DNA from: an uncultured Gammaproteobacteria bacterium
GTDB lineage: Bacteria; Pseudomonadota; Gammaproteobacteria; Steroidobacterales; Woeseiaceae
Direction of reading: 5' to 3'
NCBI GenBank assembly: GCA_937899415.1
Contig: CALBPI010000092.1
Location: 1-55,320 of the forward strand
Length of the DNA stretch: 55,320 nt
The notes beneath the pieces are model-generated. The model searched no databases, was not told where the DNA came from, and was given only the letters and a program-made list of their open reading frames with translations. The translations under genes were made by a program, and so were the position numbers. Positions within the stretch are counted from its first letter, which is position 1. Each line of letters begins with the position of its first letter. This document shows positions 12,448 to 18,864 of the stretch, in pieces.

Positions 12448-13926
12448 ATGACCGAAGCACTGATTTTCGAACAATCGCGCCCCGGCCGCACGGCACCCGC
12501 CCAGGCTCCGCTGGAGTCCGTCGACAGCCTGCTTGAAGGCTGCGAATTGCCCGCAGCACATCGCCGCAGCTCGAAGACCGTTCTGCCCGAGGTGTCGGAG
12601 CTGCAGGTGGTGCGCCACTACACGCGCCTGTCGCAGAAGAACTTCTCGATCGACACGAATTTCTACCCGCTGGGTTCGTGCACGATGAAGTACAACCCGC
12701 GCGCCTGTAACTCGCTCGCGATGCTGCCCGGTTTTATCAACCGGCACCCGCTGGGTCCCGAGACGCATGGCCAGGGCTTCCTCGAGTGCATGTACGAACT
12801 GCAGGACATGCTCAAGTCCGTCACGGGCATGCAGGGTGTGTCGCTGACGCCGATGGCGGGCGCCCAGGGCGAACTCACGGGTGTCGCCATGATCCGCGCC
12901 TACCACCGTGCGCGCGGCGACCTGGCGCGTAACGAGATCCTCGTGCCCGACGCCGCGCACGGCACCAACCCGGCTACGGCAACGATGTGTGGCTGCAAGG
13001 TGGTCGAGCTGCCCACGGATTCCGAGGGCGATGTCGACATCGAAGCGTTGCGTCAGGCTGTTGGTCCGAACACGGCCGGCATCATGCTCACGAACCCCTC
13101 CACGCTGGGCGTGTTCGAGCGCAAAATCACTGAGATCGCCAAGATCGTTCACGACGCGGGCGGCTTGCTTTACTACGACGGCGCCAACCTCAACGCGATC
13201 CTCGGCAAGGTACGCCCTGGCGACATGGGCTTCGACGTCATTCACATGAACCTGCACAAGACCTTCTCGACACCACACGGTGGCGGCGGTCCGGGTTCGG
13301 GCGCCGTTGGCGTGGGTGAGCGGCTGCTGCCGTTTATACCTGTGCCCATTGTTGGCAAGGACGACGACGGTTACCGCTGGCTCGACGAGCGCGACCTGCC
13401 GCAGAGCATCGGGCGCCTGTCCGGGTTCATGGGCAACGCGGGTGTGCTGCTGCGCGCCTACATCTACATGCGCATGCTCGGCGACGAGGGCATGCGCCGT
13501 GTGGGTGAGTTCGCGACGCTCAACGCCAACTACCTAATGAAGCGGCTCGAGGCCGCGGGCTTTGAGCTCGCGTTCCCGACCCGGCGCGCGAGCCACGAGT
13601 TCATCATCACGCTCAAGAAGACAGCGCGCGAGCACCACATCACCGCGATGGATGTTGCCAAGGCCCTGCTCGACGACGGCTTCCACGCGCCGACAACCTA
13701 CTTCCCGCTGCTCGTGCCCGAGTGTCTGCTCATCGAGCCGACGGAAACCGAGTCGCGAGACATGCTGGATGCCTTCGTGGACGCTATGGTGCGGATTGCC
13801 GAACGCGTGACGAGCGACCCCGACAGCATTCACGCAGCACCGGTCACGCAACCTGTACGTCGCCTCGACGATGTGCGCGCGGCCAAGCAGCTCGATATTG
13901 CGTGGCGTGAAACCAACGACGCCTGA
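12448..13926 (+). CDS. gcvPB: Glycine dehydrogenase (decarboxylating) subunit 2
   Basis: The catalytic PLP half of the split P protein. The 492-residue protein carries the PLP lysine K271 in [18 protein letters not shown], the substrate-site [14 protein letters not shown] (about 71-84) and the [12 protein letters not shown] segment (about 167-178). A GGGGAG ribosome binding site precedes the ATG. Genes T, H, PA and PB lie together under one glycine riboswitch; the L protein (lipoamide dehydrogenase) is not in the window. The split form occurs in Gram-positives, Thermus, archaea and some gammaproteobacterial lineages, which helps exclude enteric or pseudomonad origin. Confidence 0.97.
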
Positions 13927-13948
13927 TAGGGTCTCAAGACTGACCTGA

Positions 13949-13978
13949 CCGGCTCACGGCACCTGCGCCGTGGGCCGG
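13949..13978 (+). terminator. Strong GC-rich hairpin after gcvPB
   Basis: CCGGCTCACGGC and GCCGTGGGCCGG pair over all 12 positions (one G-U) around a 6-base loop, 22 bases after the gcvPB stop. No U-tract follows, so it may be a Rho-assisted 3' end or a structure protecting the gcv mRNA, or it may act in the leader of the next gene. Confidence 0.5.
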
Positions 13979-14010
13979 GCCTCACCCCTGCCGGAATCGG
14001 AACCCAGCCT

Positions 14011-16803
14011 ATGAACCTGATGCGTTCGTGCCTCGCCGCCACCTGCCTGCTTGCCGTCACCACACCGCTGCAGGCGGAAACGCCCGAATGGTCCAGTACC
14101 ATCGAACGCATCTCCACAGGCGTTGTGTCGATCAAGATCGATTCGACGCGGGCTTTTGATACGGGCTGGAACGTCTCTTCGCAGGCGACGGGTTTTGTCG
14201 TCGACGCAGAGCAGGGCCTGATTCTCACGAATCGTCACGTCGTCACGCCGGGCCCCGTCGTAGCTGAGGCCGTCTTCCTCAACAACGAGGAAGTGTCGCT
14301 TCAGCCGGTCTACTACGACCCCGTGCACGACTTCGGCTTCTACCGCTACGACCCGGCGACCCTGTCTTACATTGAACCCGCGGAGCTGGAACTCGCGCCG
14401 GCCCGTGCGCGCGTCGGCCGTGACATTCGGGTGATCGGTAACGACGCCGGCGAGAAGCTCTCGATCCTTGCCGGCACGCTGGCGCGCCTGGACCGTCCGG
14501 CACCCAACTACGGCCGCGGCAACTACAACGACTTCAACACCTTCTACTTCCAGGCGGCCTCGAGCACCTCGGGCGGCTCGTCGGGCTCGCCGGTCGTCGA
14601 CATTGAGGGCCGTGTGGTCGCGCTCAACGCGGGCGGCAGCAGTGGCGCTGCGTCGAGCTTCTTCCTGCCGCTGGATCGCGTCGTGCGTGCACTGGAACAC
14701 ATCCGGGCGGGAGAGCCTGTCGCCCGCGGCACGCTACAGACGACTTTTGTGCGCAAGCCCTACGACGAACTTGAGCGCCTCGGTCTGCAGGCCGCTACGG
14801 AATCGCGGCTGCGGGAAGCCTTCCCTGATGACACGGGCATGCTCACCGTGGGATTCGTCCTGCCCGGCTCGCCTGCCCACAACAAGCTGCGGCCTGGCGA
14901 CATTCTTGTCGCGGTCAACGAAAGACCGCTAGTCTCGTTCGTGCCGCTCGAATCGATGCTCGACGGCAACGTGGGCGAGGACGTGACGCTGTCGGTGGAG
15001 CGCGGTGGCAACGCCATCGACATCACGCTGCCCGTCGGTGACCTGCACGCGATCACGCCGCGTCGCTTCCTTGAGTTTGGTGACTCGATTCTCAACACGT
15101 TGTCCTACCAGCAGGCGCGGCACTACAACCTGCCTGCGGGTGGCGTGTTCGTCGCCAACCCCGGCTACATGCTCAGCAATTCGGCCATCGCACGCGGCTC
15201 GGTCATCGTCGAGGTCGACGGCAAGTCTGTTGCCAGCATCGACGACCTGGCGCGCGTGCTCGAGGCGCTGCCTTCAGACGCTCGTGTGCCCTTCCGTTTC
15301 GTAACACTCGATGCGCCGCGTCAACGGCAGCTGCGCATCGTGCGTTTGGACCGCACCTGGTACCCGACACGCTTGTGCACGCGGGACGACACGCACGGCG
15401 TCTGGCCCTGCGAGACGCTGGAAAACGGCCCCGAGAAAGCGGCACGGGAGCCGGGTTCGACGAGTTTCCCGCCGCAGGACGATGCGCGCGCTGCGAAGCT
15501 CTCGCCCTCGCTCGTGCTCGTCAACTTCGACCTGCCGTTCACGATCTCGGGCGTTGCAGAACGCCACTACTACGGCACCGGCGTCATCGTCGACGCCGAG
15601 CGCGGACTGGTACTCGTCGACCGCAACACGGTGCCCATGGCCATGGGCGACGTCTCGATCACCATCGCGGGCTCGCTCGAGATTCCCGCACGCGTCGCCT
15701 ATGTGCACCCGCTGCACAACCTTGCCATGCTCGAGTACGACCCGGCACTCATCGGTGACACGCCCGTGCGCGCCGCGCGTTTGTCTGACGTCGCGGTGAA
15801 GCCGGACGATCCCGTCTGGGTTGTGGGTCTGACGCCCTCACACCGCGTGGTCCTGCAGGAAACGCGCGTGGCTTCGCGCAGCCCGGCGACGATACCGATC
15901 TCGCGCACACTCCGGTTCCGAGACTTCAACGTCGAGCTCGTCTCCGTGGTCAACGCGCCGGCCGTGGACGGCGTGCTGGCGGATCGTCGCGGCAACGTGG
16001 TCGCGAGCTGGTCGAGCTTCGCCATCCAGGGTGGCAATGACGGCGGCCAGATGACCCGCGGTATTCCGGCCGAGGTGCTTTCCGAGTTCATCGACATCGT
16101 GCGCGACGAGCGCAGCGTGTACTCGCTCGAGACCGAATGGTCGCTGCTGCCGCTGGCCAGCGCACGCAAGCTGGGCTTGCCCGAGCCCTGGCTGGACCGG
16201 CTCGAAGCGCACAACGGCAAGCGACGCCAGGCTCTGACCGTCGAACGTGTGGCGGCTGCCACGGACGCCGCCAAGACGCTGCAGCCCGGCGACCTGCTGC
16301 TGACGGTCGACGGCGAACTCGTCTCTTCATTCCGCGAAGTCGAGCGCGCCATGCAGAAGCCTGTTGTCACGCTCGAGTTTTGGCGCAACCGCGAGCTCGT
16401 GAGCGCCGAGGTGCGCACCGAGGTGCTCGATGGCCGCAGTGCCGACCGTGTCGTGCAATGGGGTGGGGCGTTGTTGCAGGAGCCCTACCGCGAGCTCGCG
16501 CGTCAGCGTGGCATCGCGCCGACGGGTGTCTACGTGGCCTACTTTAACTACGGCTCACCGGCATCGCGCTTCGGTCTTTGGGCCGGGCGGCGTATCGTCG
16601 AGGTCAATGGCGCACCAACGCCTGATCTGGATACGTTCGTCGCCGCTGTGTCGTCGTTGCAGGACCGGGAGTCGCTGCGCCTGACGACACTCGACTGGAA
16701 CAACACGCCCCAGGTCATCACGCTCAAGCTTGATCTGACGTACTGGCGCGGTTTCGAGATCGCGCGCAACGGCGACAGCTGGCAGCGCACGCCGCTGTAC
16801 TGA
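14011..16803 (+). CDS. Periplasmic double HtrA-like serine protease (Nma111-type), second half degenerate
   Basis: The 930-residue protein begins with a Sec signal peptide (cleavage after PLQA, residue 22). The first trypsin-like domain (about 25-235) has an intact triad: H76 in LTNRHVV, D107 in VHDFGF and S191 in STSGGSSGSP. PDZ-like domains follow (about 255-340 and 360-445). A second protease-like domain (about 495-700) aligns with the first but the triad is replaced by N539 (DRNTV), N570 (LHNLAM) and V652 (AVDGVLAD); two more PDZ-like regions follow (735-800 and 815-910). This duplicated architecture with the GGSSGSP serine motif is that of fungal Nma111, and DegP-like quality control in the periplasm is the likely role. 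The gene follows gcvPB and faces the DUF255 gene with 6 bases between stops. Confidence 0.85.
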   Translation: MNLMRSCLAATCLLAVTTPLQAETPEWSSTIERISTGVVSIKIDSTRAFDTGWNVSSQATGFVVDAEQGLILTNRHVVTPGPVVAEAVFLNNEEVSLQPVYYDPVHDFGFYRYDPATLSYIEPAELELAPARARVGRDIRVIGNDAGEKLSILAGTLARLDRPAPNYGRGNYNDFNTFYFQAASSTSGGSSGSPVVDIEGRVVALNAGGSSGAASSFFLPLDRVVRALEHIRAGEPVARGTLQTTFVRKPYDELERLGLQAATESRLREAFPDDTGMLTVGFVLPGSPAHNKLRPGDILVAVNERPLVSFVPLESMLDGNVGEDVTLSVERGGNAIDITLPVGDLHAITPRRFLEFGDSILNTLSYQQARHYNLPAGGVFVANPGYMLSNSAIARGSVIVEVDGKSVASIDDLARVLEALPSDARVPFRFVTLDAPRQRQLRIVRLDRTWYPTRLCTRDDTHGVWPCETLENGPEKAAREPGSTSFPPQDDARAAKLSPSLVLVNFDLPFTISGVAERHYYGTGVIVDAERGLVLVDRNTVPMAMGDVSITIAGSLEIPARVAYVHPLHNLAMLEYDPALIGDTPVRAARLSDVAVKPDDPVWVVGLTPSHRVVLQETRVASRSPATIPISRTLRFRDFNVELVSVVNAPAVDGVLADRRGNVVASWSSFAIQGGNDGGQMTRGIPAEVLSEFIDIVRDERSVYSLETEWSLLPLASARKLGLPEPWLDRLEAHNGKRRQALTVERVAAATDAAKTLQPGDLLLTVDGELVSSFREVERAMQKPVVTLEFWRNRELVSAEVRTEVLDGRSADRVVQWGGALLQEPYRELARQRGIAPTGVYVAYFNYGSPASRFGLWAGRRIVEVNGAPTPDLDTFVAAVSSLQDRESLRLTTLDWNNTPQVITLKLDLTYWRGFEIARNGDSWQRTPLY

Positions 16804-16809
16804 CGCGTT

Positions 16810-18864
<2,055 letters not shown>

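Follow-up and report, generated by a model that had tools for sequence, protein, structure and literature searches.

A bacterial tandem HtrA protease with the Nma111/Deg7 domain layout, pairing an active-type half with a predicted pseudoprotease half

A 930-amino-acid protein encoded in a 55,320-nucleotide stretch of DNA (hereafter the window) from an uncultured gammaproteobacterium of the Woeseiaceae is a tandem of two HtrA halves, the first of active type and the second dead, with the layout of the eukaryotic proteases Nma111 and Deg7. The gene is located on contig C92 of a draft genome (3.94 Mb, 102 contigs) and is whole: on the forward strand, as are all features described below, it runs from an ATG at 14011 to a stop codon that ends at 16803 (14011..16803). 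A first-pass annotation had read this open reading frame as a double HtrA protease with an active first half and a dead second half. Its frame, coordinates and strand were right, and both the fold predictions and the residue counts reported here agree with that reading.

The protein consists of two end-to-end repeats, each a trypsin fold followed by two PDZ domains. An AlphaFold2 model of the whole protein had a predicted local distance difference test score (pLDDT) of 88.0 and a predicted template modelling score (pTM) of 0.84. Pfam, this full model, and a separate model of half 2 with its fold matches together give the domain order of Nma111/Deg7, protease-PDZ-PDZ-dead protease-PDZ-PDZ over about 1000 amino acids, and the presence of a trypsin-type protease domain with PDZ domains places the protein in the Deg/HtrA superfamily. 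PDZ-like regions had been expected after each half, and Pfam indeed places PDZ_6/PDZ_2 and PDZ_1 in both.

To count residues, we aligned 153 rows, comprising the window protein and 152 full or nearly full-length relatives, near-copies included. As these rows hold near-copies from two collections, counts were repeated on the 132 rows that are distinct over residues 30-920. Contig-end fragments (G004, G018, G038, G025:C5 and G680) and unfetched matches of an order-wide search were excluded, while L018, which was absent from an earlier row set (another frame being longest there), is among the 153. A smaller alignment of 30 rows, A1, was the source of the half-1 and half-2 profiles.

The first protease domain (about residues 30-240; 14098..14730) is identified by a Pfam Trypsin_2 match at residues 59-205, by the model and by HtrA fold matches. 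Its catalytic residues had been described as an intact triad with the serine in a GGSSGSP motif, and this description holds across the family: His76 (14236..14238), Asp107 (14329..14331) and Ser191 (14581..14583) are each invariant in 153/153 rows, and likewise in 132/132 distinct rows. Because the triad is invariant, we infer that the first half is an endopeptidase. It continues into a first PDZ domain at about residues 245-342 (14743..15036; PDZ_6 at 283-331 and PDZ_2 at 277-341) and a second, of PDZ_1 type, at about residues 347-445 (15049..15345; PF12812 at 347-421, 60-64 bits against a cut-off of 28). Residues 33-338 of this half (window 14107-15024) also match phrog_11383, a phage-collection family of unknown function, at 104.5 bits.

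The second half is, by prediction, a trypsin-fold pseudoprotease. Its non-catalytic domain (about residues 490-705; 15478..16125) was delimited by half-to-half profile alignment, by the model and by fold matches. The two half profiles align end to end over 419 columns (E 1.7e-40, probability 100) at 22-23% identity, in line with the expectation that half 2 would align with half 1. His76 falls opposite Asn539 (15625..15627) and Asp107 opposite Asn570 (15718..15720), exactly the substitutions that had been named. The His position of half 2 is Asn in 143 of the 153 rows and otherwise Ser (3), Asp (3), Thr (2), Tyr (1) or Ala (1), never His; the Asp position is Asn in 152 rows and Asp in 1. For the third catalytic position, the first-pass annotation had put Val652 in place of serine. 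That no serine stands there was correct, as residue 652 is never Ser in the 153 rows, but this residue does not align with Ser191. Instead, it lies just before a five-residue gap that faces GSSGS in the profile alignment (site at residues 652-654; 15964..15972), and because of this gap Ser191 has, on the alignment, no counterpart in half 2: the serine loop is deleted. An intact His/Asp/Ser set in the second half would have spoken against a dead domain, and no row of the 153 contains one.

When half 2 was modelled alone with AlphaFold2, the predicted structure was an HtrA protease with two PDZ domains (pLDDT 92.1, pTM 0.89), so that the outcome which would have contradicted the earlier claim, a second half lacking the trypsin fold, did not occur. 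Among solved structures this model matched 8kic (Z 23.6, 284 aligned residues, root-mean-square deviation (rmsd) 5.2) and DegP 8f0a (Z 23.4, 284 aligned, rmsd 5.5), and the best Foldseek match was DegP 4a8d (E 1.4e-21, TM-score 0.48 by query, rmsd 9.0 over all domains). A whole-protein Pfam scan at E up to 1 counted a second, weak Trypsin_2 stretch. The pattern GxS[GA] occurs somewhere in residues 485-740 in 33/132 distinct rows; the 12 matches inspected fall within segments like GGESGQ or RGISAE, away from the serine site, and we take them as chance. Behind the dead protease domain come a first PDZ domain at about residues 740-806 (16228..16428; PDZ_6 and PDZ_2 with the half scanned alone) and a second of PDZ_1 type (16441..16668; PF12812, 38-41 bits, cut-off 28).

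A half without catalytic residues might simply be a decaying remnant that has no function, and half 2 does evolve faster, with a mean pairwise identity of 53.8% for the second protease domain versus 73.2% for the first among 53 proteins. Selection on the dead protease domain argues otherwise. From 20 pairs that are 80-97% identical we took the 12 closest, some of which have a member in common, and found a ratio of nonsynonymous to synonymous substitution rates (dN/dS) of 0.04-0.13 in 11 of them, the twelfth being saturated. The dead half is thus under purifying selection as a protein and is not decaying. Half 2 is also found in all 153 aligned rows, though these were chosen as full or nearly full length, and its fold is predicted with confidence. 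Taken together, we regard a functionless remnant as almost certainly wrong. In two proteins, L039 and L040, half 2 is strongly diverged, with a very long tree branch, and the first triad and a pair of cysteines described below are kept.

The origin of the two halves was addressed with a tree of 20 N-halves, 20 C-halves and 10 single-unit HtrA controls, in which the three groups separate (support 100/98, 99/95 and 100/99). As N-halves and C-halves form separate supported groups, the tree places one duplication before these 20 bacterial members, on the assumption that the HtrA controls mark the root.

The protein is probably exported and periplasmic. Its N-terminus is hydrophobic (mean hydropathy 1.99 over 12 residues), and a hydrophobic stretch lies within the first 32 residues in 50/53 proteins. 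A probable signal peptide spans residues 1-22 (14011..14076), with a cleavage site between QA and E. The signal peptide and periplasmic location claimed at first pass therefore stand as probable, on simple features, the hydrophobic N-terminus and a site read by eye. Between the halves, a linker contains Cys456 and Cys467 (15376..15411), both present in 153/153 rows; in 121/132 distinct rows the mature protein has no other cysteine. We infer that they form a disulfide, and the pair fits the oxidising environment of the periplasm. In another family of the class, the N-termini of L037 and L038 are lipobox-like, so that there the protein may be membrane-anchored lipoproteins; L085 is ambiguous in this respect.

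We propose, with moderate confidence, that the protein is a periplasmic protease of the Nma111/Deg7 kind with a housekeeping type of role, in which the dead half acts as an oligomerisation scaffold and the active first halves are presented in trimers. An ancestral protease-PDZ-PDZ gene would have been duplicated and its copies fused; the first copy would have remained a serine endopeptidase, and the second would have kept its fold but not the His, the Asp or the serine loop. The inactive domain of Arabidopsis Deg7 (AtDeg7) is described as being involved in trimerisation (PMC3473262), and after this example half 2 most likely builds trimers through its dead protease domains. Such a trimer would present three active first halves. 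Unfolded periplasmic proteins are the most likely ligands of the four PDZ domains, bound by their exposed ends or hydrophobic parts. One feature of half 1 bears on its mode of assembly: a G-x-D-x-G motif is invariant there (153/153 rows), and the same site reads G-x-P-[FY]-G in the ordinary HtrA proteins of this genome (L001-L003), where we take the aromatic residue to be part of the usual HtrA trimer core. The half-1 motif would agree with assembly through a surface other than that core.

Several points weigh against this proposal. The trimer role of the dead half, which we hold to be most likely, is drawn by analogy with the plant protein, and the same report states that trimerisation by the inactive domain is still to be examined for other Deg7 orthologues (PMC3473262). 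Pfam finds only PDZ domains, and no protease domain, in half 2 scanned alone at E up to 0.1; for this reason a Pfam-based annotation would miss the half-2 pseudoprotease. The program used for the tree of halves warns that long branches meet, the C-halves and HtrA controls among them. Finally, a hydrophobic stretch of equal height occurs after residue 45 in 49/53 proteins, so the signal-peptide test is weak.

Two other roles were weighed. The dead half may be an allosteric regulator or substrate receptor, which would detect misfolded proteins with its PDZ domains and closed pseudo-active site and then turn half 1 on, with trimers forming through half 1 as in ordinary HtrA. Half 2 does keep its PDZ domains, and the occurrence of Asn570 at a former catalytic position in all rows but one suggests that a structural or binding function has been retained; Trp27, near the half-1 N-terminus, is conserved in 150/153 rows and is also consistent with such a regulator. 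Against this stands the reported part of the AtDeg7 inactive domain in trimerisation (PMC3473262), and we consider regulation of this sort rather unlikely. The protein could also be chiefly a chaperone or holdase, with proteolysis secondary, a role that is compatible with the dead half being a scaffold. Chaperone activity of yeast Ynm3/Nma111 is mentioned in a review (PMC4877387), but the invariance of the catalytic triad argues that proteolysis is under selection, and a mainly chaperoning role therefore seems improbable to us. For the scaffold reading and its competitors alike, a conserved bacterial version allows the role of the dead half in Nma111/Deg7 to be approached with simple genetics and structural studies in bacteria.

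Family models separate the protein from the usual bacterial HtrA types. It is, by these models, not an ordinary DegP/DegQ, because it scores 125.2 bits against a cut-off of 416.2 with the NCBI Do-family model TIGR02037; instead of one protease domain and then PDZ, as in the Do-family layout, it contains two domains of protease fold and four PDZ domains. It is 22-27% identical to the HtrA proteins used for comparison. Since the genome holds three ordinary single-unit HtrA proteins besides (L001-L003), the tandem protease is probably not a replacement for them. PDZ_1 (PF12812) is found twice per protein, at 95.8 bits in all against a cut-off of 28, and in 30/30 rows of A1. Of 299 genomes drawn across the window's own phylum (Pseudomonadota, which the phylum- and class-wide searches cover), 69 contain a PDZ_1 match of some kind at E <= 0.001, and in 15 the score is above the cut-off. 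Scores over 60 bits are limited to this gene (64.2) and one relative (66.7), the others lying at 20-41 bits. By score, then, the first PDZ_1 copy is distinctive and the second is not, the latter reaching 41 bits versus 41.4 for the best ordinary HtrA.

Shared ancestry of the bacterial and eukaryotic proteins after the duplication is likely, on comparisons that we treat as a lead only, as they used provisional transcriptions of Arabidopsis Deg7 and yeast Nma111 and not database records. The provisional yeast Nma111 aligns with the window protein over 910 columns at 38% identity, and the best segment of the provisional Deg7, in half 1, over 503 columns at 48%. When these sequences were added to the tree with 8 HtrA controls (those used before without L002 and L049), eukaryotic N-halves joined bacterial N-halves (100/98) and C-halves joined C-halves (99/94). 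This grouping speaks against a bacterial duplication independent of that in Nma111/Deg7, which we consider very improbable. In favour of independence, the kinship is read from the layout, from PDZ_1 and from the provisional sequences, and the second PDZ_1 copy scores no higher than the best ordinary HtrA of the phylum sample.

In a larger N-half tree with 7 controls (without L002, L003 and L049), the provisional eukaryotic sequences fell among the bacterial rows, with the plant not joined to yeast and with weak inner forks. Across 200 bootstrap trees, the bacterial rows lay on one side of a branch in 0%, and so did the two provisional eukaryotic rows; with the same eukaryotic sequences, an approximately unbiased (AU) test did not reject a single bacterial clade (p 0.433), nor did it reject a single eukaryotic clade (p 0.468). 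It is possible, as a tentative suggestion, that nuclear fungal Nma111 and chloroplast plant Deg7 derive from a protease that worked in the periplasm of this proteobacterial lineage, had by then been duplicated and carried its dead half, and on its transfer to eukaryotes lost the signal peptide and the linker disulfide. A bacterial (proto-mitochondrial) origin of the fungal type has already been proposed (PMC5982838); the new part here would be a periplasmic source of gammaproteobacterial type. If this holds, the bacterial members show the family's original job, and in any event they offer outgroups for tracing where the eukaryotic proteins came from.

Within its order almost every genome carries the gene, and across its class the occurrence is patchy. 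Strong matches, including some contig-end fragments, occur in 58/60 genomes of the window's family and order, its own included; the two genomes of the order that have none, G022 and G048, measure 1.3 and 1.4 Mb. Class-wide, 25/370 genomes match at E <= 1e-80, namely its own genome, four more from the order and, beyond the order, 20 from 11 families. Two phylum-wide draws gave 5/299 and 5/398 genomes, both times its own and the same four genomes of one class family. A further scan for relatives, with two peptide patterns that both lie in half 1, yielded at least 538 relatives among the 589 stretches listed; the best named among the top 80 of these come from metagenome assemblies labelled Woeseiaceae, Gammaproteobacteria, Chromatiales, Steroidobacter and a few others. 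A mobile or viral origin was considered and rejected, with no copies in plasmid records or viral contigs: there was no match in 72,556 plasmid records (E limit 1e-20), and none of the 23 viral-contig stretches that matched a pattern encodes a relative, the phage record collection being outside this search.

Immediately upstream, and not part of the protease, is a putative gcvPB gene (12448..13926). Among 80 named loci, several of them truncated, it lies upstream on the same strand in 75. For loci outside the order, taken with flanks of about 1.5 kb, L179 and L182 showed a gcvPB match; the remaining 17 loci of L176-L194 showed none, and neither did L037-L040. As matches outside the order are confined to these two, the linkage is mainly an order-level feature. 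No sigma-70 promoter was found by a scan from 13700 to 17000, and the two terminator-like sites in the same interval, against 2.1 expected, both lie inside the protease gene. Elsewhere in the same genome and outside the window, contig C102 (8843-12304) encodes a 700-amino-acid protein, L005, that carries Trypsin_2 (75.2 bits) and a DNA/RNA non-specific endonuclease domain, PF01223 (121.2 bits).

Among known systems, the closest in architecture are Nma111/Ynm3 of yeast and Deg7 of plants, which share with the window protein the domain order, a first protease domain of active type followed by a dead one, and four PDZ domains with a PDZ_1 in each half. For Arabidopsis Deg7, a length of 1097 amino acids and the layout PD-PDZ-PDZ-PDia-PDZ-PDZ are given (PMC3473262). 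Unlike these proteins, the window protein is bacterial, has a probable signal peptide and no nuclear or plastid setting, and bears an invariant linker Cys pair, whose positions are not occupied by Cys in either of the two provisional eukaryotic sequences. DegP, DegQ, DegS and the single-unit proteobacterial HtrA proteins likewise combine a trypsin-fold protease with PDZ and supply the closest solved folds of each half, but have one protease domain each. Human HtrA2, which of all solved structures gives the best match by sequence (E 7.4e-18, residues 29-307), is also a single unit, and PDZ_1 is said to be missing from the mammalian branch (PMC5982838). Among the literature matches listed we found no paper on the bacterial tandem architecture, its Cys pair or its order-wide presence. 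Bacterial Nma111 orthologues as such have been published before, as has the proposal that the eukaryotic proteins are of bacterial origin. The nearest precedent, compared by description only, is a protein of a different bacterium, Desulfatibacillum alkenivorans, which is likewise called an Nma111 orthologue and, according to a 2026 review citing Kaushal et al. 2023, can replace the yeast gene (PMC13304501).

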